Origin: an uncultured Acetatifactor sp.
GTDB lineage: Bacteria; Bacillota; Clostridia; Lachnospirales; Lachnospiraceae
NCBI GenBank assembly: GCA_947627535.1
Contig: CANQWM010000010.1
Location: 1-64,000 of the forward strand
DNA: 64,000 bases
Direction of reading: 5' to 3'
Within the stretch, counting starts at the first letter, position 1; each line of letters starts with the position of its first letter. Shown piece by piece: positions 1,426 to 13,254 of this stretch. Position numbers and translations under genes: made by a program. The notes under the pieces were generated by a model, which saw only the letters and a list, made by a program, of their open reading frames with translations, was not told where the DNA came from and did not search any database.

Positions 1426-4029
1426 TTATGGGGTTGTAGAAGTATCATTCTCCAAAATATGCGAATTCATAATTTTACTACCGGCATACATATGATATTT
1501 TACCCCACTGGCCACTGCCATCTCCTCTGCTGCTGCCTGCTTCGCCTTGACCACAGTATCATCAATCTTATTGTCTCCTTTGACCTCAATAAGCTGATAG
1601 GAACCATCTGTCATCCTCGCAAGAAAGTCGGGATAGTACTGGCGGATTCTCCCAGACTCCGGATCGTAGTAGTATACCGAAAGATCTCCTTGATTAGACG
1701 TAAACATACCCGTAAAATACACCTCTGCGACCTTACCGCTTGTGATGTACTGCATGAAGCATTCCCTCTCCGGGATAGAATCAAAGCAGTAGGTATCGGC
1801 GTGGAAGCTCTTCTTCAGTTGCTCCGGCGTAAAACCTTTATACTTATTTGTAATAACGAGGTCGTCCTTCGCAGAGAATTCATAATACCCAGCATCTTTC
1901 GGTTCTCGCAGCAGTACCAGTTCCCTGTCCTCTGTTTTTAATTCCGAGGTGATTTCAAAGAGTGCATGGAACATAGCCGGAATGACGTAATCATCCAGAA
2001 CAACATTATAATGATTAACAACTTCAAGAATCGTATCAATCCCATCAACTGACTCTCGGAGTATTCTTGCCGCAAGAATACAAGAAATATTCAAATAACG
2101 AGCCACCTCTCCGGCCAGGGAGAACTCACTATATTTCATGTTCTCCTGGAGATAGTCGATGTTCTTTTCTTTGACTGTGGTATCGCGAGCAAGGCTGTCA
2201 CGCTCATACATGATACTGGCATACTTAGAAAGATCAGCATCTACCAGCTTGAAATCCACAGGTTCGGAATATTCCTTTTCGTGGAGTGTGTACTCATGCC
2301 ATACACGTTTTAGGGTAATTGTCCTTGGAGGCGGCAGAACACGCACCTGATACTTATGACGAGTGGCATTGGACGGATTCTTGATCTCCTTGATCTCCAT
2401 ATTGAAATTCTTATGAAGTTCATCGTCCAAAGTGTCATAGTTCTCTTTGGATAGAAACACGGTAGCTGTTAAACGCTCGTCCGTAATTGCGCGGAGACAG
2501 CGCATTGTAGCCTGCAGAACAAATATTTTTGACTTGGGGCTGCGGAAAAGTGCCACACCAAACAGAGAACGGCAGTTCCAGCCTTCTTTGCCTTTCTCTA
2601 CGAGAATAATAAACTGCTTTTCGTTGCCTTCTGTACCAGGGACATCAAGGTTATTGAAGTCCCTAATGTCATCATTCTTTGTGTATTTTGCATCGCCGAC
2701 GTTCAAGAGAATCTTTGATACCGGAATTCCGAGCTTTGCAAGTATCTTCTCAAGAGCAGGCTTTACCTCCATGGCTGCCTCTTCTACACCTGCCGCATAG
2801 ATAGCCAGTTTCGGATTCAGACCTTCATAAATTTGTCCACCATATCTCTCCCAAAATGTGGTTACCACTGCTGTGAGGAACTCATCATTCTTCACGTTCT
2901 CAAAGCCGAGCGGGTCTGCATCCTTCAAAAAACTGTTCCAGATAGATTCGCGCAGACCATATGCATAAACTACCTCCGGCAGAAGCTGATTCTTGACATA
3001 CGGTGTACCTGTGTAGTTATAGCACGCCACGATGGAGGTATTTGCCGCAAGCAGATTGATGGTATCACGAAGGCTTGTCTTATTCGTTCCACTCGACCTA
3101 ATCTGCTTTTCAAGATCTGCTCCAAAGAGGTGATGTGCCTCATCAACATAGACACCAAGCTGAGGAAGGCGGCAGAGCTTCTTGAAACGCTGATTATCCA
3201 TCAACGTAGTATCATCCCATGCGTCATCATTGCCACCTGCGCCATAGACGGCGGAAAGTAAAGAGCCGGAGCCATTAAAGAGCATCTGACCGGGTGTCTC
3301 TTCTTTGCGCTTTTTCTTAACGATAATTTTCTGTGTATTAGAGATGATGATGTTGAAATCGGAATCATCAATCGTATGCAGAATAGTTCCTGTCTCGTCC
3401 AGAAAGTGGAACTTAATATTTGAATCAAGCACACGGGCATATTCTGGCGGCACCACTTTCGTCTTATCAAAGGTTATAATCTCACGGAGAGACTGAAGGA
3501 CGGTCTTGTCCGGCGCAAACACAAGAGCATTGTGACAAAAACGCTTATCCCCCGGATACTTCTTCGCAAGCAGAAATTCATAGAAGATACAGGTGGCCAT
3601 AAGAATAGTTTTTCCAAGTCCCATTGTGAGAGCATAGATGTAGTTAGGGTACGATTCTCGGTATTTCTTCATCTGCTTGAAAATCGTGTCGGTCTGCTTC
3701 TCTGTCGGAGCGTCAAAGAGACAAATCTGACCACCTTTGTCAACGGCATAATAGGACGCATCGGAGAAACGATCTCTCTTATGACGCCAGTCATCGAACA
3801 TCTCGTAGACCTGCTTGTTATTCATGAATTCCTTCACGAAGACATACATCTCCAGCGCTTCGAACTGTGGGGTACGTAGAAAGGCTTTGGGATTCTCCTC
3901 GCTGTCGTTATAGACGAGGAACTTCCTCGTAAGGTCATTGTAACGTGAACGTATTTTCCCACGGTTCGTAATGTAGTAATACCATAGCTGCTGATTAAAG
4001 GAAAAATTCGAATCAAATTCCACAGCCAT
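1426..4029 (-). CDS. res: Type III restriction enzyme Res subunit (SF2 helicase-nuclease)
   Basis: The product is 867 residues. Walker A is MGLGKT (about 136-141), motif II is DEAH (296-299), and later SF2 helicase motifs include the GKEGWN segment and the TMR motif of the second RecA domain. Near the C-terminus D801 (YPDF), E815 and K817 (IEVK) form a PD-(D/E)XK nuclease triad, as in type III restriction subunits. The family translocates on or senses DNA using ATP and cuts unmodified DNA together with Mod. Its ATG follows directly on the TAA stop of mod (TAA|ATG), so the pair is translationally coupled. It is somewhat shorter than EcoP15I Res. Confidence 0.88.
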   Translation of the reverse strand: MAVEFDSNFSFNQQLWYYYITNRGKIRSRYNDLTRKFLVYNDSEENPKAFLRTPQFEALEMYVFVKEFMNNKQVYEMFDDWRHKRDRFSDASYYAVDKGGQICLFDAPTEKQTDTIFKQMKKYRESYPNYIYALTMGLGKTILMATCIFYEFLLAKKYPGDKRFCHNALVFAPDKTVLQSLREIITFDKTKVVPPEYARVLDSNIKFHFLDETGTILHTIDDSDFNIIISNTQKIIVKKKRKEETPGQMLFNGSGSLLSAVYGAGGNDDAWDDTTLMDNQRFKKLCRLPQLGVYVDEAHHLFGADLEKQIRSSGTNKTSLRDTINLLAANTSIVACYNYTGTPYVKNQLLPEVVYAYGLRESIWNSFLKDADPLGFENVKNDEFLTAVVTTFWERYGGQIYEGLNPKLAIYAAGVEEAAMEVKPALEKILAKLGIPVSKILLNVGDAKYTKNDDIRDFNNLDVPGTEGNEKQFIILVEKGKEGWNCRSLFGVALFRSPKSKIFVLQATMRCLRAITDERLTATVFLSKENYDTLDDELHKNFNMEIKEIKNPSNATRHKYQVRVLPPPRTITLKRVWHEYTLHEKEYSEPVDFKLVDADLSKYASIMYERDSLARDTTVKEKNIDYLQENMKYSEFSLAGEVARYLNISCILAARILRESVDGIDTILEVVNHYNVVLDDYVIPAMFHALFEITSELKTEDRELVLLREPKDAGYYEFSAKDDLVITNKYKGFTPEQLKKSFHADTYCFDSIPERECFMQYITSGKVAEVYFTGMFTSNQGDLSVYYYDPESGRIRQYYPDFLARMTDGSYQLIEVKGDNKIDDTVVKAKQAAAEEMAVASGVKYHMYAGSKIMNSHILENDTSTTP

Positions 4030-5970
4030 TTAACGCACCTCCACTTCAAGCGACTCGGAAAGCAGGTCTGTAATTTTTACTTTGATTGTGCCGCAGCTTT
4101 CCGGAATATCATAGATGCCCTTTACCATCTCATCCTTGCCGGGAACATCAGTCACGGTTGGCTGTATGACCACACCATCGTAGTTCCAATCAATCATGAT
4201 GGAGTCAACAAGTTGGCGCCAATCTTCCACATACTCTTTCTGAAGGGAAAGTTTCTGCATTAGATTCATCGGGTAGAAAGCGCGGATAACCAGTTTACTA
4301 CCCTCACGTACTATCTCCGCTTCAGAATCACGTTTCAACTGCAATTCCGCTTTGTCACGAAGTATATCTACAATTTGAACATCCACTTTATACTCGGCAA
4401 GTTCCTGCTCCAGCGCGCCTTTCAGGTCAGGCTCGTGTCCCATGCAGACGATGGTGATACGCTCTACAGGCTGGTTCGGGTTCTCCTCCTTGCGTTTCTC
4501 ATAGGTCTTGTATGGCAGGTTTGCAAGAAGCTCTTTCAAGTCTGCCTTCGTAGCAATACGATTGACCGGCATGATTTTCACCATCCTGTCGTCAAGTTCC
4601 CCGTCCCAAACATTGCTCTGAGGGAACGGCTGAATCTCCAGAGCCGCAATTAGCAGGTTGCGGGCTTCCACTGGATTACGAAAGAAATCGTAGTTGTTCA
4701 CATTGTAAACTTCAAATCCTGTGTACTTAACGTCCGCCTCCAAAGCGGAGGCATCTATTCCCTTTGCCTTAAAGAAGTCGATGTCCTTTCTACAATCTTC
4801 GGCACTCAGTTCAGCATCTCTGTCTGCGCTTACTGATGCAAGATAAGGAGCAGGCTCCTCAGCGACAATAGAAAGCTGAGGTTTTATCGGGTTATAAGTG
4901 ATTGGAGTATGGGAAAAAGTCAGTTCATCGGCAACGGCAAGCAGACGTTTTGTTGTGGTCTGGATTGCACCAAGATTGATGTCTGCGCCAATAAAGCGTC
5001 TACCAAGTTTCATGGCAACGGCTTGTGTTGTACCGCTGCCCATAAAACAGTCGAATACTATACCATTTGGAGGGCATGAGGAAATAATAATTCTTTCAAG
5101 AAGTCTTTCCGGTTTTTGTGTAGGGTAGTCCAGTCCTTCCTTATCGGAATTGTTGATTTTATCCATAATCCAAACATCATCTATGGGACGACCATCTTTC
5201 ATCGCCTCTTCTAAGAAGCGTTTAACACGTTTACCTCCACCAGCATCAGAAAGAACATACTTCTTCCCTGTTCCTTCATCGATTAGTATTTTCTGCTTCC
5301 TTGACTTGGCATACGCTTCCGGCGATTCCCATTCCAGAGTAAAAGGCTCAAAATAGGGAGTATCTGTTTTAGAGTAATAGAGGATTGTGTCATGACGTCT
5401 ATTAAAATATGTATTGTTTTTTCGATTCCATCCGCTATATCTCCAGATAATTTCGTTTTGAAAATTTTGGGCACCATAAACCTCATCCATTAATAATCGA
5501 ATATGATGTGCTTTGTGATGGTCAACATGAATATAAATTGCACCTCGATCAGAAAGCAATTCCCTCATGACTAATAATCGTTCATACATAAACTGTAGAT
5601 ATTCATCATTTGTCCATATATCTCCATACTGCTTTTCTTCAAAAGAAGAACTATCACTTTCAGCCTTACCGACACCCCTCAAATCAATTTTCTTTTTATA
5701 GTCGGCTTTGCTATCAAATGGAGGGTCAATATATATAAGATCAATCTGCCCACGATAGTCCTTAAGCATATGACTCATGACCTGAAGATTATCTCCCCAA
5801 AATATCTTATTGATCCAGCCATTCTGCTCCGATCCATACGTCTCCCGCAGTTGTGCAGGATAATACTGCGTAGCACGGTAGGGGCGTTTCCCAGTCCAAC
5901 GAAGTTCAGGGAACCCTTTTATTGTAGGCCTCTGTTCAAATTCAAAAGTAAGCTGCTCACCATTTTCCAT
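4030..5970 (-). CDS. mod: Type III-like adenine-specific DNA methyltransferase (Mod)
   Basis: The product is 646 residues. The catalytic motif IV is DPPF (82-85) and the AdoMet-binding motif I is FMGSGTT (309-315). This order (IV before I) is that of the beta class, which includes type III Mod subunits and N6-adenine methyltransferases. The segment between the motifs, where target recognition usually lies, is only about 220 residues. The protein then continues for about 330 residues as a C-terminal domain I do not recognise. It presumably methylates the host recognition site to protect it from the coupled Res protein. It sits five bases downstream of the membrane-protein gene. Confidence 0.85.
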   Translation of the reverse strand: MENGEQLTFEFEQRPTIKGFPELRWTGKRPYRATQYYPAQLRETYGSEQNGWINKIFWGDNLQVMSHMLKDYRGQIDLIYIDPPFDSKADYKKKIDLRGVGKAESDSSSFEEKQYGDIWTNDEYLQFMYERLLVMRELLSDRGAIYIHVDHHKAHHIRLLMDEVYGAQNFQNEIIWRYSGWNRKNNTYFNRRHDTILYYSKTDTPYFEPFTLEWESPEAYAKSRKQKILIDEGTGKKYVLSDAGGGKRVKRFLEEAMKDGRPIDDVWIMDKINNSDKEGLDYPTQKPERLLERIIISSCPPNGIVFDCFMGSGTTQAVAMKLGRRFIGADINLGAIQTTTKRLLAVADELTFSHTPITYNPIKPQLSIVAEEPAPYLASVSADRDAELSAEDCRKDIDFFKAKGIDASALEADVKYTGFEVYNVNNYDFFRNPVEARNLLIAALEIQPFPQSNVWDGELDDRMVKIMPVNRIATKADLKELLANLPYKTYEKRKEENPNQPVERITIVCMGHEPDLKGALEQELAEYKVDVQIVDILRDKAELQLKRDSEAEIVREGSKLVIRAFYPMNLMQKLSLQKEYVEDWRQLVDSIMIDWNYDGVVIQPTVTDVPGKDEMVKGIYDIPESCGTIKVKITDLLSESLEVEVR

Positions 5971-5975
5971 TTTCG

Positions 5976-6743
5976 TTAATCCTCCTGAATAGCTTCAGTT
6001 CTTAATTGCTGTTCAATATCCGATACAGCCAACGGAATGTACCGCCCATCCGCAGTAAGATTACGTCCAAATATACTGCCAAGAATTGATTGATTTTGAA
6101 TCACAAGCTGCGAATTATTTTCCAAATAAGCATTGAAGCCTTCAAGCACTTTCGGATCATAAAGTTTTTCCAATAATGCTACCCTATCGACTATTCCCGC
6201 ATTGCTGAGATTTTCAACACCTTCTGAAACTTTTTTCTTTCCATCAGCCATTTCTGCCATCCCGACAATTATCTTCCTTAACTCTCGTATCACTTCTTCT
6301 TGCGTTAGCGACTTTCGTTCAGCATCATTAGTCTTCACATTCTCCGTCGAAAGCACGTTGCTCACAGGTTCAATTAACCTTTGTGCACTTTCTTCCTTTT
6401 GAAGTTTGACCTGTGCCTTGCGTTGCTCCGTCGCCTGTTCTTCGGCTTTCTTTGTCCTATGTCTGTCCCATAATTTCTTTACTCCGTAGCCCGCTCCGAT
6501 AATAGCAGCCACAATCAAACCACCTATTGCGGCAGAGCCAGCATTAATCCCTCCTGAAGGCTCTCCCTCCTCGTTACTGTCATTATCATCGTCTAAAAGA
6601 CTGATATCAACTCGATGTGCTATGGAACCATCTGCACGCCGTGCATAGAAATCAGGCAATAAATTATCTTCTTGGTAAGCCTCATAGTCATCATCAGTAA
6701 GACCAATTTTTAAACCTCTCTCTGGGTCATCTATATACGGCAT
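5976..6743 (-). CDS. Single-span membrane protein of the methyltransferase/helicase operon, unknown function
   Basis: The product is 255 residues. An N-terminal soluble part (about 1-65) ends in an acidic stretch (LLDDDNDSNEEGE). It is followed by a glycine-rich transmembrane segment (SAAIGGLIVAAIIGAGYG, about 70-88), a basic stop (KKLWDRHRTKK), a charged helical linker and a helical C-terminal domain of about 110 residues. There is no cleavable signal peptide. The basic flank suggests the large C-terminal part is cytoplasmic. Two bases separate its start from the helicase stop, and five bases separate its stop from the mod start. It therefore clearly belongs to the same operon, yet a membrane protein is not part of a standard type III system. 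No family recognised. Confidence 0.7.
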   Translation of the reverse strand: MPYIDDPERGLKIGLTDDDYEAYQEDNLLPDFYARRADGSIAHRVDISLLDDDNDSNEEGEPSGGINAGSAAIGGLIVAAIIGAGYGVKKLWDRHRTKKAEEQATEQRKAQVKLQKEESAQRLIEPVSNVLSTENVKTNDAERKSLTQEEVIRELRKIIVGMAEMADGKKKVSEGVENLSNAGIVDRVALLEKLYDPKVLEGFNAYLENNSQLVIQNQSILGSIFGRNLTADGRYIPLAVSDIEQQLRTEAIQED

Positions 6744-6745
6744 TG

Positions 6746-9631
6746 TTATTTCCCCCTACAATAGAATCGGAAATCGCACTCTTTGCAAACCATTGAATCA
6801 CTGGCACAGCGGTGGAAATCCTTCTTCATGATTTTCTTGACTGTATCATCAAATACCGCCATGGTTCCTTCCACAGCAGACTTCGTGTACGGATACGTGA
6901 TAGTCGGCACTCCGTCATCCTCACCTGTGTAATAGAGGTGCATCTTACTGACCTTTTGCCCGGTACGCTCCTCTACAAGATGAGCGTAAATATGGAGCTG
7001 CCGTCTGTACTGTTCAAGCCTTGCCCGCATCTTCTCCATATCAGGCTTTCGCTCGGCTTTGAAATCCACTATCTCAACCGTGTCTCCCTCGCCACAAATA
7101 AGGTCAACCTTGCCTTCGATAATGTAGTCCGGCTTTACTAAGGAAACATCTACTTCAGCCTGCTGTATCTGCGACCAGTCTCCACGCTGTCGTTCAACAT
7201 AGCGCAATACCTGTTTCAAGGCTGCCTCACGCTGGGGGCCAGCTAAGTATGTATGCTCAGTTTTTGTCAGAGACACATAATTGGAATCAAACCAACGGCT
7301 AATATTTTCCTCCGTAATCGATTGTTCTTCATGTCGAAGTGCCGCACGGTGTATATCCTCAATTGTCTCGTGGACAAGCGTACCAAAAAGCATAGCATTT
7401 GTACGGACAGGCATAAATTCCAATTCCCTATAGAATTTATACTGTAAGGCGCAAGTCTCGTAAACTGTAATATGCGATGTAAACGAGTAGGTATTCTTAA
7501 TGTTCACATCCTTTATAGGCTTGAAATCAAATTCTCTTATATTAAATGCGGGATTGTCCGCAGACTGTAGTTCCCCGTAAATTTCCTTGAAGTAGTTACT
7601 GGGTGTCCGCTTATCTTCGCAACAGGTCAGTATCAATAAATCCTGTGCACGTGAAAATGCCGTATAGTAAAGGCGCCAGAAGTCAAAGAACTTCGTCATC
7701 TCATGCGGCTCAAAAGCGGGACGCTTAAAATATCTGTCCTCTATCCGCATCATCAAATCACTTGTATTTTTCCTCGGCACATTTGCCAAAGAGTCCACAA
7801 AAACAATCGGAAACTCCATACCTTTGGACTGATGAATGGTAAGGAAAGAAACACAGCCGCTCGGAGCATACTCTGAATCATCCTCATACTCCACAATTCC
7901 ACCATCAAAGAGCAGACGAAGATACAGATTGAAAAGCATCTCTGTATTCTGATCTATACGGCGTTTACCGCGATATTCGACTGCATCCAAAACGTCCACT
8001 CGATGAAGGTACTCAAATTTTCCAATAATCTGTGTCAGCTTGGCGAGGTTACGAGCCGGCCGGATGTCGACCACGCCGACATCCATCTCTGTGTCGAGAA
8101 TCGCAGCGAACGGCTGGAATTCAAATAGCTGGTACATGAGTCCGCAGTAAGCGTAGTCCGTTGCTCCGGTCAAGCTAATATGGTCTTTACCACGTCGGCG
8201 TATCAACTTCAAAAGCTCTGAGTTCTCAGGCTTGGTAAGATACTCGTTCGCGGTTATGATGCAATTTCGGTAATAGGTTAGATGCTCCGGCCGTAGGAAA
8301 GTAAACTCCCCGTTCTCTAATCCCTGAACATATCGTGGGAACATAAGCATGAGACACCCTAGAGCAAGCCGTATCTCGTCACGCTGGAAGAACATATCAG
8401 ACCGCGGAGAATAAACATTTATGTGGTTCTCCTCAAGAAAATGGGCAAGAGCCGTCACCCTTGGATGTTTTACTGAATTAAACAGGAATGCAATCTGGTT
8501 ATAGTCTGTCAGTTTGCCGGAAGCTTTCAGGTCATTGATGAACCGCAGGATCTTTTCATGCCACTCGTCCGTATCTTCCACTCCTGCAAGTTTCACAACT
8601 GCAGGGCTATGTATCGTAGTTTTCTCGTGTGGCTTGATTCTCTTATCATAACGAAAGTTCTCCCAGCAAAACTTAAACTTTGCTCCTTCCGTGGTAATCA
8701 TCCACTTATTGTAGAAATCAACAATGTCACTGTTGGAACGATAGTTGATAGTCAGGGGAATAATGCGGCACTCGCCGTCCGCAAACTTTTGCGGAAATTC
8801 CAAGATGTTTCGGATAGTAGCACCTCGGAAACGATACAAACCTTGGTCATCATCGCCGACCACGCAGATGTTCTTGCCATCTCCGGCAAGGAGAAATACA
8901 AGCTGCTCTTGCACAAAGTTTGTGTCCTGATACTCATCAATCATGATATGAGTCACCTTGGCACGCAACTCTTCTAAAATTTCTACATGATCCTGCAAAA
9001 GATAGAATGCTTCAACCTGGATAGACGAGAAGTCCATTAGATTGGATGCCGTCAAAAGATCACGGTATTCTTTCAGCATTCGGCCGAGAGCGACAATCGA
9101 TAGCTCTGAATCTGACATCAGTTCCTCTGGCGTCACCAGTTCCTCGGAAATGTTATTCACATAGTTACAGATAGCCTCTGCCTGCTTCCATGCGCCACTA
9201 TTGGGCAGAACACTCTCCCATTCTGGAATGTTCCTGAAACGATAAATATTTTGAAAAACCATATACTGCTGATCAAAAGCGTCCAGAAGACGGTAGTTTC
9301 TACGGAGCCTCGTAAACTCCAGATGTTCTTTCAGAATGCGAAGACATAGCGAATGGAACGTGCCGATATACATGTCATTGATATTCGCCACGATTCCTCT
9401 GTCAGATAGTTCATTCGTAATTCTTGTAATCAGTTCCTTGGCGGCTTTCTCCGTGAAAGTAGCAATGAAAATACTTTCAGGTTTCACGCCGCATTCTTCT
9501 ATGAGATAGATTGCACGCTGGACAAGCGTATAGGTTTTGCCAGTACCTGGTCCAGCAGTAATAAGAACAGGACCGTCTGCAGTAGCTATTGCCTTTTGTT
9601 GTCCTTCATTAGCATTTCCGAAATCAAACAT
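6746..9631 (-). CDS. UvrD/AddA-like SF1 helicase fused to a RecB/AddB-type Fe-S nuclease domain
   Basis: The product is about 961 residues. SF1 helicase motifs are all visible: GPGTGKT (Walker A), DEYQDTN (motif II), VGDDDQGLYRFRGA (III), NYRSN (IV), IHQSKGMEF (V) and YTAFSRAQ (VI). The last 250 residues carry a RecB-like nuclease core (EGKVDLI, then VDFKAE). One cysteine precedes it (TCALQYKF) and three follow (CKECDFRFYC), the arrangement of the 4Fe-4S cluster in AddB and Cas4 nucleases. I chose ATG 9631 (MFDFGNANEG) because the homologous core starts there and AAAGGA lies upstream. A TTG start 20 codons earlier lacks a site. It is the first gene of the four-gene operon. Confidence 0.82.
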   Translation of the reverse strand: MFDFGNANEGQQKAIATADGPVLITAGPGTGKTYTLVQRAIYLIEECGVKPESIFIATFTEKAAKELITRITNELSDRGIVANINDMYIGTFHSLCLRILKEHLEFTRLRRNYRLLDAFDQQYMVFQNIYRFRNIPEWESVLPNSGAWKQAEAICNYVNNISEELVTPEELMSDSELSIVALGRMLKEYRDLLTASNLMDFSSIQVEAFYLLQDHVEILEELRAKVTHIMIDEYQDTNFVQEQLVFLLAGDGKNICVVGDDDQGLYRFRGATIRNILEFPQKFADGECRIIPLTINYRSNSDIVDFYNKWMITTEGAKFKFCWENFRYDKRIKPHEKTTIHSPAVVKLAGVEDTDEWHEKILRFINDLKASGKLTDYNQIAFLFNSVKHPRVTALAHFLEENHINVYSPRSDMFFQRDEIRLALGCLMLMFPRYVQGLENGEFTFLRPEHLTYYRNCIITANEYLTKPENSELLKLIRRRGKDHISLTGATDYAYCGLMYQLFEFQPFAAILDTEMDVGVVDIRPARNLAKLTQIIGKFEYLHRVDVLDAVEYRGKRRIDQNTEMLFNLYLRLLFDGGIVEYEDDSEYAPSGCVSFLTIHQSKGMEFPIVFVDSLANVPRKNTSDLMMRIEDRYFKRPAFEPHEMTKFFDFWRLYYTAFSRAQDLLILTCCEDKRTPSNYFKEIYGELQSADNPAFNIREFDFKPIKDVNIKNTYSFTSHITVYETCALQYKFYRELEFMPVRTNAMLFGTLVHETIEDIHRAALRHEEQSITEENISRWFDSNYVSLTKTEHTYLAGPQREAALKQVLRYVERQRGDWSQIQQAEVDVSLVKPDYIIEGKVDLICGEGDTVEIVDFKAERKPDMEKMRARLEQYRRQLHIYAHLVEERTGQKVSKMHLYYTGEDDGVPTITYPYTKSAVEGTMAVFDDTVKKIMKKDFHRCASDSMVCKECDFRFYCRGK

Positions 9632-9800
9632 AAAAGCTTGATATCCTTTCTTACGGTTATTTATAAAGTGTAAAAATTTTATCTTGTACAATCCGCATTG
9701 GGTCAGCTAAGTTTAAATTCAATTATTCCATAATTCTATAATTTTTGATCATATAACTTTTTGCATTTTTATTCTTTGTACTTTAGATACTCAACAGTAC

Positions 9801-11897
9801 CTATTTCTTTTTAATATTTGTTGGAATATCAGTCTCAACAACATTCCTAATTTCAGTCATAATTGGTGTATAAAAATCTACATCAACCTTCGGTGTAGAT
9901 AATGAAACCACTAATGAGTATCTAATTTTACTATCATACTTATCCAAATAACTTCGTTCTCTCCACCAACCAATTACAGGAAAAACTGCAATATTTTTAC
10001 AGTCACACAATTCTGCTGCTGTTAATTCACAATAATCAGAATGTATGGAGCCTACATCTCGATTATCTGATCCTAAATACCAACGTTCACTTCCACTTGT
10101 ACCCTCGCCTTTATCCTTTTTATCATCTCCACGCAACTTTACATTGATACGTTTCTTAAAATCATCAAGATCCTCGTTAGAGTTAATTACATCAAATCTT
10201 AACCCACACGATGGATAACGATATTTATCCTTCCAGCCGACTTCACCCGGACCAGGTTCAATAAAATATGATAAAGTCACTTTCAGAGTAACCATTTCGC
10301 TTCCAAGTTTTTCCAAAACTTCTGTGGGCCAAGGCAAGGTATGAATATGCATTTCATTCATACTGTTTTTGCTATATGGTTGCAATTCACCTTGGATGAC
10401 CATATTCACACTATTATTCATACACTGAATTGCTTTTTCCAAATCAGGAATACCATATCCACAAGTTCTTAAAAGCCTCCGACGCCCTTTTGTTTTTGTG
10501 TCCTCAATACAAAATTGCCTTTTCATTTGTTCAGTCCAGCTAGCAGAATGAATCATCAATGCCCTAACTGTTTCAGGCCACATATTAGGATATTCAACCA
10601 GTAGCTGTGAACAAAACCATGCTGCCTGCGCTGCAGCAGAACTTGTTCCCCATATTGTTGAAAAATTTTTAATCAATGGTCTATAATTGGTTGTTAATAA
10701 TGATAAATCTGGACACTCCGAATAATCAGTCCCATTAGTTGCCATATTGCCTCCGTCAAATAGCACTTCTGGTTTAACAGGCCACTTACTATTCCACAAT
10801 TCAGAAGTAGAATTATACGGAGACATAGCACCCGCTTCTGCTACTGGATTATAACCTTTAAAAGACGCATCTATTATGTTGACATCATTTGAATACGCTC
10901 CAACAGTAATAGCATTCCATGCTTGTCCCGGACTTTCAACACAATGCAATGTATTTGCATCTGGAAATGATACTCTTCCCAATTCTTCTGGATATACATT
11001 CCCTGCGCTAACAACAAAAAGGCGCTTTACATTTTCTTCATCTGCACCAGATGTAATGCTATCTACCGCTGCTGACCACGAAGTCGGACTCCCATCAAAA
11101 GTATTATATTCTGGAGAAGTCACCGCCATACATATAACTCTATGTACAAACGGATTGGCTATCTCAGCTAATGAAACAGCTTGCTCTGTAACCGCACCAT
11201 ATAACTCAGGATCGTTTTCACCCGTTGGTGGCAGAATCTTTACTGACTCAATTTTCTGGGGTATCTCTATTTTAGCTTTTCCTAACAATGTCTCTTTTAG
11301 GTTATTATATAGGGCTATTCCAGCCATTTCCGTTCCATGTCCTTGATGATCCCCACTGCCCCATGTAGAATTTACCGCTTGAACGTGATCTAAATTAATT
11401 GCCTGCGCCAACAAAGGATGCGCTGCTGTAACTCCTGTGTCCAACAAACAAATAGCTACATTGCCATTTGTATAGGTTGTACGTTGTAATAATTCATCTA
11501 TCCATTCCCTTTGTTCATTATTAGACAAATCTGAAAAAACAGCTGTTGCTTCTTGTGCTCGCCGTATTTCCGTGATATATGGACATACAGCTATTAAGAG
11601 TTTTAGCTGTTCAGCATTTGCATATATCATCTTGACTATACGTTCCGGAAAAACAATATGCTTATCATCAATATGTATTTGATTTTCTGAACATATCAAG
11701 AAAATACTTTCCTCAGTTTCTCTCCATGCTTCAATAATATTACCCTTCTTAAAGTCATACCTAAGCCAAATTTCGCACCAAACAGGTGTATTTTTAGGCA
11801 TGCTTTCAGATGTTCCAACCCAAAAAGAATCCAACATTGCCACTTTTATATCATCAATGCTTCTAACCAAATCATTATTCTTTGGATTTCCCTTCAA
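9801..11897 (-). CDS. ietS: IetS-like subtilisin-family (S8) serine protease, catalytic part
   Basis: The product is 698 residues as read from a TTG at 11897. The complete subtilase machinery is present: D153 (LLDTG), H187 (GHGTEMAG), oxyanion N300 (VVSAGN) and nucleophile S419 (GTSSAAAQ), with a C-terminal beta-rich domain after residue 500. No signal peptide, so it acts inside the cell. Together with the AAA+ ATPase upstream it matches IetAS, a protease-ATPase pair first described as a plasmid stability module and found in defence islands. The family normally has an N-terminal domain fused in frame; here that domain is a separate upstream frame. The residues just before the TTG in this frame (VEAYANEQT) read like native protein. 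So the gene is probably one gene interrupted by a -1 shift, not one starting at TTG. No ribosome binding site precedes the TTG. Confidence 0.78.
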   Translation of the reverse strand: MKGNPKNNDLVRSIDDIKVAMLDSFWVGTSESMPKNTPVWCEIWLRYDFKKGNIIEAWRETEESIFLICSENQIHIDDKHIVFPERIVKMIYANAEQLKLLIAVCPYITEIRRAQEATAVFSDLSNNEQREWIDELLQRTTYTNGNVAICLLDTGVTAAHPLLAQAINLDHVQAVNSTWGSGDHQGHGTEMAGIALYNNLKETLLGKAKIEIPQKIESVKILPPTGENDPELYGAVTEQAVSLAEIANPFVHRVICMAVTSPEYNTFDGSPTSWSAAVDSITSGADEENVKRLFVVSAGNVYPEELGRVSFPDANTLHCVESPGQAWNAITVGAYSNDVNIIDASFKGYNPVAEAGAMSPYNSTSELWNSKWPVKPEVLFDGGNMATNGTDYSECPDLSLLTTNYRPLIKNFSTIWGTSSAAAQAAWFCSQLLVEYPNMWPETVRALMIHSASWTEQMKRQFCIEDTKTKGRRRLLRTCGYGIPDLEKAIQCMNNSVNMVIQGELQPYSKNSMNEMHIHTLPWPTEVLEKLGSEMVTLKVTLSYFIEPGPGEVGWKDKYRYPSCGLRFDVINSNEDLDDFKKRINVKLRGDDKKDKGEGTSGSERWYLGSDNRDVGSIHSDYCELTAAELCDCKNIAVFPVIGWWRERSYLDKYDSKIRYSLVVSLSTPKVDVDFYTPIMTEIRNVVETDIPTNIKKK

Positions 11898-12292
11898 TGT
11901 TTGTTCATTTGCATATGCTTCAACTTTTTAAGAAAAATACTTTCTTTCCCAGAAGGTATATAAACTGTAGCCCTAATTATGGATTTTTCTTCATCCTCAT
12001 GGACATTGAGCAAGCGAATTCCAGCTTTACGATTTTCTAAACTCTTTATGGCCAAATCATGTCCTTCGGCGCTTAAGAATTCAAGATAAGTTCCTTCTTT
12101 ATAGCGAATTGCCGCAGCCTGTTTCTGGGACAATGATTGGGAATAACACTCTTGTAATTTTCTCTGTATAAATGCCGCATGCGTTGCAACTGTACGCTTT
12201 GGATAGTTTGTTTTTATAGGCTTTGATATCGATGTATAAGGCATAGTTTCAACCGTTTGTTTCAGAAAAATATTCCTTTTTTCCACTGCCAT
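11894..12292 (-). CDS. N-terminal domain of the IetS-like protease, split off by a frameshift
   Basis: The product is 132 residues. The segment TYLEFLSAEGHDLAIKSLE followed by KAGIRLLNV and ATVYIPSGKE is what one expects in the N-terminal domain of these S8 proteases, which then lead through a helical linker into an NPKN...SIDDI segment. Here the protein ends KHMQMNKH at TGA 11894-11896, whereas the -1 frame carries on in protease-like sequence. It starts two bases after the AAA+ gene stop. I read it as the front part of the protease gene, either lost by an indel or joined by ribosomal frameshifting. The alternative, an independent small antitoxin-like subunit, fits less well. Confidence 0.7.
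   Translation of the reverse strand: MAVEKRNIFLKQTVETMPYTSISKPIKTNYPKRTVATHAAFIQRKLQECYSQSLSQKQAAAIRYKEGTYLEFLSAEGHDLAIKSLENRKAGIRLLNVHEDEEKSIIRATVYIPSGKESIFLKKLKHMQMNKH
11924..11931 (-). other. Frameshift site between the two parts of the IetS-like protease gene
   Basis: On the minus strand the sequence reads CTT AAA AAG TTG in the frame of the N-terminal part. The catalytic frame is -1 relative to this. It opens only at a TAA that overlaps the A-run and continues GTT GAA GCA TAT GCA AAT (VEAYAN). The frame change must therefore happen between the A5 run (plus-strand T's 11925-11929) and the TGA at 11894-11896. One extra A would restore a single open frame. T AAA AAG is a poor version of the A AAA AAG slippery heptamer, and I see no strong downstream stem-loop. 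Confidence 0.7.
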
Positions 12293-12294
12293 AC

Positions 12295-13254
12295 TTATGC
12301 CTCCCTACATGTATATACATTTTGCCGTTCACTTAATAATGCAATTACTGCCTTACTTGTAATTGGCTCATCACTCAAAATAGAAGTTTTAATCGCATCA
12401 TCACATACTTTTGCGATTTCTGCCTGGCTTAATCCTTCTGCAATCTTTACTATTTCTTTTGAAATAATAAAATAATTATCGTAAGCGTTTATTTTGTATT
12501 CAAATAAACGCTTAATCTCTTTAGATGTAGGCAATGTATAATGTAATACATCATCAAATCTTCTAAACAATGCTTGATCTAAAAGTTTTTGATTATTTGT
12601 TGCTGCCACAATAATACTTTCAGAATTATCCTGCTCTATAAATTGTAGAAACGAATTAAGAATTCTCCTCATTTCTCCCACCTCATTATCGAGGTTTCGA
12701 TCTGCACCTATGGCATCAAACTCATCAAAAAAGTATACACCAACAGTTGACTCAATACTGTCAAATATCTGTCTTAACTTTACACTTGTTTCCCCCATGA
12801 ATTTTGTCACAAGCTTATCCATTTGTACCGTATATAAAGGTAATGATAACTCAGAAGCAATAATTGATGCCGTTAACGTCTTTCCGGTTCCCGGATTGCC
12901 TTCAATCAAGATTTTTCTTCTATTAGTCAAACCATAAGATACAAGTTTATTCTTATTTCTATACTCACTTAGAATTCTTTGAATTTTATCACTAATATCT
13001 GCTGAAACAATTAGTTCTGATAAATCATGGGAAGGCATTGATAGTGTAAGCATTGGATTAGTTGAAGTAAGCTGAACAATATTGGCTCTTTTGCTTCCAA
13101 CTCTATCAATCTGCTTTTTTAAATCACGCGCTAAGTTATCGTGCCCAAGCCTAGCTTCGTGCGCAGCAATTTGTAAAACGACTGTTTTAAACTTTTCATC
13201 ATTACAATCTGCATAAGCTTTCACCAAACTTTTTATTTGTTCTGCTGTAGCCAT
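12295..13254 (-). CDS. ietA: IetA-like AAA+ ATPase, partner of the subtilisin-like protease
   Basis: The product is 319 residues. Walker A is GNPGTGKT (119-126), Walker B is FFDEFD (175-180), sensor 1 is AATNN, and an arginine finger lies in ALFRRFDD. A short helical N-terminal region precedes the AAA+ core. This is the ATPase of an IetAS-type pair. By analogy with the plasmid pTi system it restrains or activates the neighbouring protease, but the exact role in defence is not settled. The start at ATG 13252-13254 has GGGAGATG upstream, and a strong sigma-A promoter lies 40 bases further up. The following protease frame starts two bases after its stop. Confidence 0.8.
   Translation of the reverse strand: MATAEQIKSLVKAYADCNDEKFKTVVLQIAAHEARLGHDNLARDLKKQIDRVGSKRANIVQLTSTNPMLTLSMPSHDLSELIVSADISDKIQRILSEYRNKNKLVSYGLTNRRKILIEGNPGTGKTLTASIIASELSLPLYTVQMDKLVTKFMGETSVKLRQIFDSIESTVGVYFFDEFDAIGADRNLDNEVGEMRRILNSFLQFIEQDNSESIIVAATNNQKLLDQALFRRFDDVLHYTLPTSKEIKRLFEYKINAYDNYFIISKEIVKIAEGLSQAEIAKVCDDAIKTSILSDEPITSKAVIALLSERQNVYTCREA

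Follow-up and report, generated by a model that had tools for sequence, protein, structure and literature searches.

The window analysed here, a 64,000-nucleotide (nt) stretch forming the start of contig CANQWM010000010.1 (C10) of an uncultured Acetatifactor sp. genome (2.85 Mb in 53 contigs), contains an operon of four minus-strand genes that runs from position 9631 down to 1426 with intergenic gaps of 2, 5 and 0 bases. These genes encode a UvrD-type helicase fused to a Cas4-like nuclease (UvrD–Cas4), a protein with one predicted membrane span, a type III modification methyltransferase (Mod) and a Res-like ATPase–nuclease (Res). An earlier reading of the locus, made from the sequence alone, had recognized the four genes and their spacing, and the open reading frames (ORFs) and Pfam matches confirm both. 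Here we report that UvrD–Cas4, Mod and Res form a conserved, co-evolving core, within which the target-recognition region of Mod is exchanged, whereas the membrane protein occupies an optional position.

The UvrD–Cas4 gene (6746..9631) encodes 961 residues counted from an ATG codon; the mechanical ORF opens at a TTG at position 9691. The protein consists of a superfamily 1 (SF1) helicase followed by a C-terminal Cas4/AddB-like iron–sulfur (Fe–S) nuclease domain of the PD-(D/E)xK type, and matches Pfam UvrD-helicase (E = 3e-73), UvrD_C and PDDEXK_1 (E = 5e-22). The nuclease domain (residues 719–959; 6755..7477) contains four presumed Fe–S cysteines (C727, C949, C952 and C958), which occur together in 68 of 69 homologues, the exception being locus L034; the Walker A, Walker B and nuclease residues checked are kept in 68 or 69 of the 69. 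Its solved relatives by sequence are PcrA/UvrD. The second gene (5976..6743) encodes the 255-residue membrane protein, and we refer to its position between uvrD and mod as the slot.

Mod (4030..5970; 646 residues) is a β-class amino-methyltransferase (Pfam N6_N4_Mtase, E = 1e-53), and its best solved relative by sequence is the Mod subunit of EcoP15I (4zcf, E = 2e-30). The DPPF or DPPY motif is present in 79 of 80 aligned rows, the remaining row being a gap; judged by sequence, the motifs present do not discriminate between N6-methyladenine and N4-methylcytosine as the product. Residues 176–268 (5167..5445) form a hypervariable target-recognition region. Res (1426..4029; 867 residues) comprises a superfamily 2 (SF2) ATPase and a C-terminal TnsA-like PD-(D/E)xK nuclease part (1480..1812), the latter defined by residue conservation (E754, D801, E815 and K817) and by a match to Pfam TnsA-like N (residues 785–848, E = 7e-7). 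The Walker A, DEAHH and TGTP motifs and the four nuclease residues are intact in all 85 aligned rows, except for T141 (83 rows, with serine in the other two). Pfam ResIII remains sub-threshold (21.5 bits against a cut-off of 22.5), and a Res profile retrieves no solved-structure relative at E = 0.01. The sequence-only reading named the four proteins correctly, except that Res, with its TnsA-like nuclease and remote sequence, is an unusual one. Because none of the window Res, UvrD–Cas4 and slot proteins reaches an NCBIfam cut-off, and the PADLOC type III nuclease model covers just 42 residues of Res, routine annotation may well show the methyltransferase as an orphan here.

A search of genome_contigs with Res identified 210 stretches encoding relatives, of which the best 80 were kept as genome loci. 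In 79 of these, 400 bases or more precede Res, and Mod is directly adjacent to Res in 75 of the 79. The other four comprise one in which an over-long ORF call overlaps Mod (L074), two in which Mod lies further off in the same order (L081 and L084) and one with no Mod (L058). Where 2.5 kb or more of sequence precedes mod (66 loci), UvrD–Cas4 is present in 64, and both misses (L073 and L081) contain short ORFs similar to the C-terminal end of UvrD (57 and 28 bits, respectively), apparent remnants that adjoin inserted genes resembling mobile elements. The core trio, with its order kept, occurs in loci assigned to 10 phyla. The 80 loci are distributed among Bacillota (41), Pseudomonadota (16), Spirochaetota (6), Actinomycetota (5), Bacteroidota (5), Chloroflexota (3) and four phyla with one locus each; as many of them are metagenome bins, single phylum assignments can be wrong.

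The trio is also found on plasmids and in phages. A tblastn search with Res returned 26 plasmid records. Alignments spanned 80% or more of the query in 14, and in all eight of these 14 that were opened (from E. faecium, E. casseliflavus, Tunicatimonas, Blastomonas, Nitrosomonas, Spirosoma, Vibrio and Yoonia), uvrD-cas4, mod and res lie on one strand in the window order, the E. faecium uvrD being split in two pieces. The whole operon had no megablast match among plasmids; weaker Res relatives occur on plasmid H22 (31% identity) and in phages H28 and H29 (25–29%). Among 17 IMG/VR loci, which include a similar pair (L120 and L121) and one, L124, whose contig is as long as that of genome locus L076, Mod lies beside Res in all 17 and UvrD–Cas4 is present in 14, being absent from L113 (contig edge), L128 (none within 6 kb) and L129 (none); in L117, 0.8 kb separates uvrD from mod. 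The phage genome PV036426, which also has tail, endolysin and integrase genes, carries all four genes with gaps of 2, 4 and 0 bases. Its proteins share 90% (helicase), 59% (slot protein), 74% (Mod) and 91% (Res) identity with those of the window, Mod diverging mainly in the recognition region. Given the recurrence of the trio across 10 phyla and of the four-gene layout in a phage genome, the arrangement is far beyond chance.

We compared pairwise protein distances across 66 loci for which the complete trio was available (58 from genomes, 7 from plasmids, and the window), excluding rows under set lengths and L093–L095. Distances correlate closely between Res and UvrD (0.966), Res and the Mod core (0.919), and UvrD and the Mod core (0.893), with none of 500 permutations as high. 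By contrast, Mod residues 176–268 show correlations of 0.012, 0.009 and 0.055 with Res, UvrD and the Mod core, values equalled or exceeded in 164, 192 and 43 of 500 permutations, respectively. Consistently, for the 103 pairs whose Res proteins are 80% or more identical, the mean identities are 0.86 for Res, 0.84 for UvrD, 0.78 for the N-terminal part of Mod and 0.88 for its C-terminal domain, as against 0.25 for the recognition region. Among the 60 of these 103 close pairs listed, L015 and L018 alone share a nearly identical recognition region (95%, with Res at 0.87), whereas L015 and L014, with closer Res proteins (0.95), match in only 30% of this region. L016 (5115–8957) encodes two tandem Mods with one Res, the Mods being 14% identical in the recognition region and 96% in the C-terminal domain, and is possibly a dual-specificity system. 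Agreeing distances can also arise from block inheritance or transfer; the three genes nevertheless stay one block, and the recognition region does not. On the aligned sequences, this looks like the swapping of a recognition module within an otherwise fixed machine, a restriction–modification signature of specificity change. Together with the presence of UvrD–Cas4 in nearly all testable loci, the Res–UvrD correlation bears out this part of the earlier reading, the helicase–nuclease being a constant partner of mod-res and not a passenger.

The fourth gene behaves differently. Of the 68 genome loci that have the complete trio, 19 show a gap of more than 150 bases between uvrD and mod, leaving 49 with no room for a gene, and the mod–res gap is that wide in three (in L069 owing to a split Res). 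One protein family fills 11 of the 19 wide gaps. Its members occur as form A, with a membrane span, in L017, L020 and L049 as in the window and PV036426, and as form B, with no span, in L013–L016, L033, L037, L038 and L045 (in two pieces). The two forms share approximately 100 C-terminal residues (BLAST E values of 4e-4 to 7e-12 and profile E values of 3e-11 to 1e-13, both against a small set of slot proteins). The window protein has one hydrophobic stretch (peak 19-residue Kyte–Doolittle score of 1.86, for the segment from residue 66), consistent with one span, and its predicted structure is poor, with a predicted local distance difference test (pLDDT) score of 50.5. Searches of Pfam, PADLOC and PHROGs assigned it to no family, and NCBIfam gave one weak match far below the cut-off. 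The other eight wide gaps hold unrelated genes or unassigned sequence, including three defence-type genes: one for a BRO-N protein matching PADLOC PDC-S13 (L030), one for an OLD-like ATPase–TOPRIM protein (L091) and one for a GmrSD-type protein (L059). On a midpoint-rooted Res tree, with fourteen loci scored as of unknown slot state, the slot family is confined to one 30-leaf part and requires at least five changes, and the distribution of forms A and B requires two. In genome samples, it was found in 3 of 392 genomes (its own, G384 with a whole system and G250 with a decayed copy) and in 1 of 398 (its own). Three settings account for all homologues seen: the uvrD–mod gap of these systems, a decayed copy and a captured piece. 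Its occupancy of 11 of 68 loci, the unrelated alternatives and its restriction to these loci show that the slot gene is a dedicated yet optional, exchangeable accessory. The co-occurrence of the four families, which the sequence-only reading had suggested checking in genome neighbourhoods, therefore extends to the trio and not to the membrane protein. The proposal that this protein is part of the machine is likewise not supported, as most loci leave no room for it and its family includes span-less members; for the same two reasons, the degradation of DNA ends at the membrane, also envisaged there, is not a conserved feature.

Reverse searches among 392 genomes of the order recovered the Mod family (E = 1e-100) in G000 and G384 alone, and Res (E ≤ 1e-20) in these two, in G037 (a fragment cut by a contig edge) and in G314 (a remote relative). 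The UvrD family (E ≤ 1e-100) was present in eight genomes: G000 and G384, with mod-res; G055, at a contig end; and G362, G364, G381, G215 and G281. In a FastTree phylogeny that left out broken or short UvrD rows under set lengths, the truncated G055 helicase falls inside the core clade, and the five others group as a sister clade with a support of 100. Four sister-clade proteins are whole (L104–L107); L111, the remaining one, extends to the edge of its contig. These UvrD–Cas4-like enzymes (L104 7334–12393, L105, L106, L107 and L111) sit in another gene set, adjoining a DUF1351-like gene (confirmed by Pfam in L104 and assigned by eye in the other four) and, in L104, also a gene with a DEDDh-type domain.

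The surroundings of the system are rich in defence-type genes. In the window, it adjoins an IetAS-like pair on the minus strand (9801..13254), a neighbour outside the core, consisting of an AAA ATPase (12295–13254; PADLOC IetA, E = 6e-72) and a subtilase (9801–11897; IetS, E = 2e-35) with a 132-residue ORF between them (11894–12292) that has no Pfam match. Of 108 loci examined, 8 have such a pair close to the system, five of them among the 80 genome_contigs loci (window 9801–13254; L109 4039–7327; L013 282–3721; L014 336–3775; L037 625–4058; L030 905–4196; L028 5959–9493; L130 2472–5911), and PV036426 bears one. They belong to several subfamilies and stand upstream of, divergent from or downstream of the system, and the repeated pairing may be functional or may reflect island clustering only. 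As an estimate of prevalence, the PADLOC IetA model was discarded, since at the threshold used it matched all 31 genomes and all 14 controls, mostly through longer FtsH-like ATPase frames; only four matches, near full length and in short frames, look like IetA, and they come from 3 of the 31 genomes (G020 has two, G000 and G022 a single one each).

In G250, a genome of the same genus, the equivalent site (L112 5196–20000) carries a SIR2–Argonaute-type gene, a decayed copy of the system, BrxP and BrxC. An RlmD gene flanks the site in both genomes, the G250 copy being 78% identical to that of the window and above the NCBIfam RlmD cut-off. A ZorA-type protein is encoded directly 3′ of res on the Spirosoma plasmid (L009 12643–14061). 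Ten scanned proteins, nine of them from neighbours, included two with WYL domains (L071 and L016) and four with HTH domains (L014, L042, L085 and L092). Two window ORFs 3′ of res (484–807 and 773–1354), which match no Pfam or PADLOC family, both correspond to a single ORF at L049 12686–13555, so the window copy seems split. In the viral contig L129 (5342–8465), Mod is intact, a form B slot gene is cut at its start, Res is cut after 154 residues and UvrD is absent, amid genes for a phage-type DNA polymerase, a pyrophosphatase and a ribonucleotide reductase. By its gene content, L129 looks like a phage that retained the methyltransferase, perhaps protecting its own DNA (anti-restriction capture); a chimeric assembly would also account for it.

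We consider it likely that the locus encodes a three-enzyme, type III-like restriction–modification system with an optional fourth gene. The defence-rich surroundings (IetAS pairs, the Argonaute-type and BREX genes at the relative's site, and ZorA), the Mod-only phage contig and the reported nuclease activity of ZomB, a UvrD protein discussed below, support this interpretation, as do the gene content, the intact catalytic residues, the co-evolution of the core proteins and the swapping of the recognition region shown above. We infer a scheme of methylation-based self-recognition and cleavage with an antiphage role, in which the exchangeable target-recognition region would let Mod read a short site, and Mod would methylate the host DNA. 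At unmethylated sites, Mod would recruit Res, whose ATP-driven SF2 motor and TnsA-like nuclease would then cut. The UvrD–Cas4-like enzyme would load at the resulting ends or nicks and unwind and degrade the DNA, rendering the cut irreversible. The slot protein would serve as an accessory, a regulator or a second-line effector, absent from many systems. Several observations weigh against such an obligate three-enzyme restriction system. The locus set leans to close relatives, as its 80 members are the best of 210. Some Res proteins occur with an incomplete trio: L058 encodes Res with neither Mod nor UvrD on its 8.9-kb contig, L128 has a Mod–Res pair with no UvrD in 6 kb, and the remote Res relative in G314 (224 bits) accompanies a Mod-like gene (270 bits) with no UvrD match in 19 kb. 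In L058, the two genes 3′ of Res (3624–7590) are reminiscent of HamA and HamB of Hachiman, and the second yields general helicase matches only in NCBIfam. The sister clade occurs without mod-res, and thus the helicase–nuclease can have other uses. Finally, Res diverges strongly in sequence from the known type III Res proteins, and its fold matches EcoP15I Res no better than other SF2 motors.

The sister clade also lends weight to a rather unlikely alternative, in which Mod and Res restrict alone as an ordinary type III system and UvrD–Cas4 is a helper that repairs or clears self-damaged host DNA; section 8 of PMC5704561 likewise favours an ancillary, repair-like role. However, only 2 of the 66 testable loci lack UvrD, both with apparent remnants, and the Res–UvrD correlation of 0.966 suits an obligate part better. 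Moreover, a general helper would be redundant, since the window's genome encodes its own AddA (NCBIfam 914 bits, cut-off 708). The same near-constancy and co-evolution of UvrD–Cas4 in loci assigned to ten phyla make it very improbable that a plain two-gene type III system, as the Mod–Res architecture might suggest, has merely gathered hitch-hiking neighbours. A third possibility, which we judge distinctly improbable, is methylation-guided exclusion of phage DNA with no clean endonuclease cutting, a BREX-like outcome in which Res and UvrD–Cas4 form one translocating, degrading complex. The two motors and two nuclease sites, intact across the alignments, are compatible with it, whereas the complete Res PD-(D/E)xK site in 85 of 85 rows suits cutting. 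As for the slot protein, some type I operons include the anticodon nuclease PrrC, which acts once restriction is blocked, and a comparable second-line effector function seems unlikely here: the uvrD–mod gap does host unrelated defence-type genes (L030, L091 and L059), but the protein has no known toxin domain, form B lacks the membrane span and the structure prediction is of low confidence.

Beyond the three-enzyme restriction system that we favour, a broader proposal can be put forward tentatively: these loci might constitute a separate, widespread restriction class, in which recognition by Mod gives access to a degradation machine with two motors and two nucleases (Res plus UvrD–Cas4, a hybrid of restriction–modification and RecBCD) and the uvrD–mod gap acts as a dedicated cassette for interchangeable second-line modules, including the membrane protein. 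Temperate phages would carry the operon, and phages would steal the methyltransferase to escape it. The core is widespread, in loci assigned to 10 phyla, on plasmids and in phages. Should the third protein prove necessary, a single system would combine restriction with end degradation, and its relatives would supply natural exchanges of specificity as well as candidate accessory effectors in the slot. Apparently new here are the co-evolution of the core, its changes of specificity, the exchangeable slot, the four-gene phage, the methyltransferase-only phage contig and the repeated IetAS neighbours, whereas the three-gene core is already in print (2017).

In the open literature searched, with most subscription papers outside reach, we found one paper describing the core set (PMC5704561; Hudaiberdiev et al. 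2017) and no experimental study of the trio; the portions of PMC12458937, PMC8649781 and PMC2292703 consulted contain nothing matching. With UvrD–Cas4 beside Mod and Res already printed, the set is less novel than the sequence-only reading supposed. That reading did not recognize it as BREX, DISARM, Dnd or Hma, and no model of these systems appears among the PADLOC matches listed for the four proteins (for Mod and the helicase, the top 25 out of 64 and 65 families, respectively). The signature genes of three of these systems include PglZ and BrxC for BREX, DrmAB for DISARM and DndBCDE for Dnd. The window helicase domain resembles GajB of Gabija (E = 3e-55), yet no GajA (ATPase–TOPRIM) occurs among the ten proteins scanned, and Res and Mod occupy the operon instead. 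With AddAB, RecBCD, AdnAB and ZomB, the window enzyme shares the combination of an SF1 helicase and a RecB/Cas4-type nuclease. It differs from AddA and RecB in scoring below the NCBIfam cut-offs for both and in being encoded with mod-res, and from ZomB, which, according to the accessible part of PMC9453066, is a UvrD protein with two Cas4-like domains and ATP-dependent nuclease activity.

Extra helicases also accompany other type III systems. The m4C systems described in the available section of PMC8259958 have an additional SF2 ATPase gene 5′ of mod in many genomes and a DPPY/F motif in Mod, like the window system; their ATPase has no nuclease motif, whereas the third gene of the window encodes an SF1 UvrD–PDDEXK fusion. 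A close counterpart is the neighbourhood in PMC5704561. It has the gene set of the window, in which an SF1 UvrD helicase fused to a pfam12705 nuclease stands next to mod and res, and WYL and HTH regulators lie near several loci of both; the window system likely belongs to the same clade, and section 8 of that paper mentions neither a slot gene nor specificity swapping or co-evolution. Compared with EcoP15I, the window system likewise has a β-class Mod with an exchangeable recognition region, a Res that combines, by its motifs in 85 of 85 rows, an SF2 motor and a C-terminal PD-(D/E)xK nuclease, and adjacent mod and res genes. It differs in the TnsA-like nuclease and the remote sequence of Res and in the added helicase–nuclease. 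Type III enzymes as a class methylate a single strand of an asymmetric site and cleave when two such sites are inverted. As mod and res do not stand alone and uvrD-cas4 accompanies them in 64 of 66 testable loci, we class the system as a type III-like variant rather than a plain type III system.

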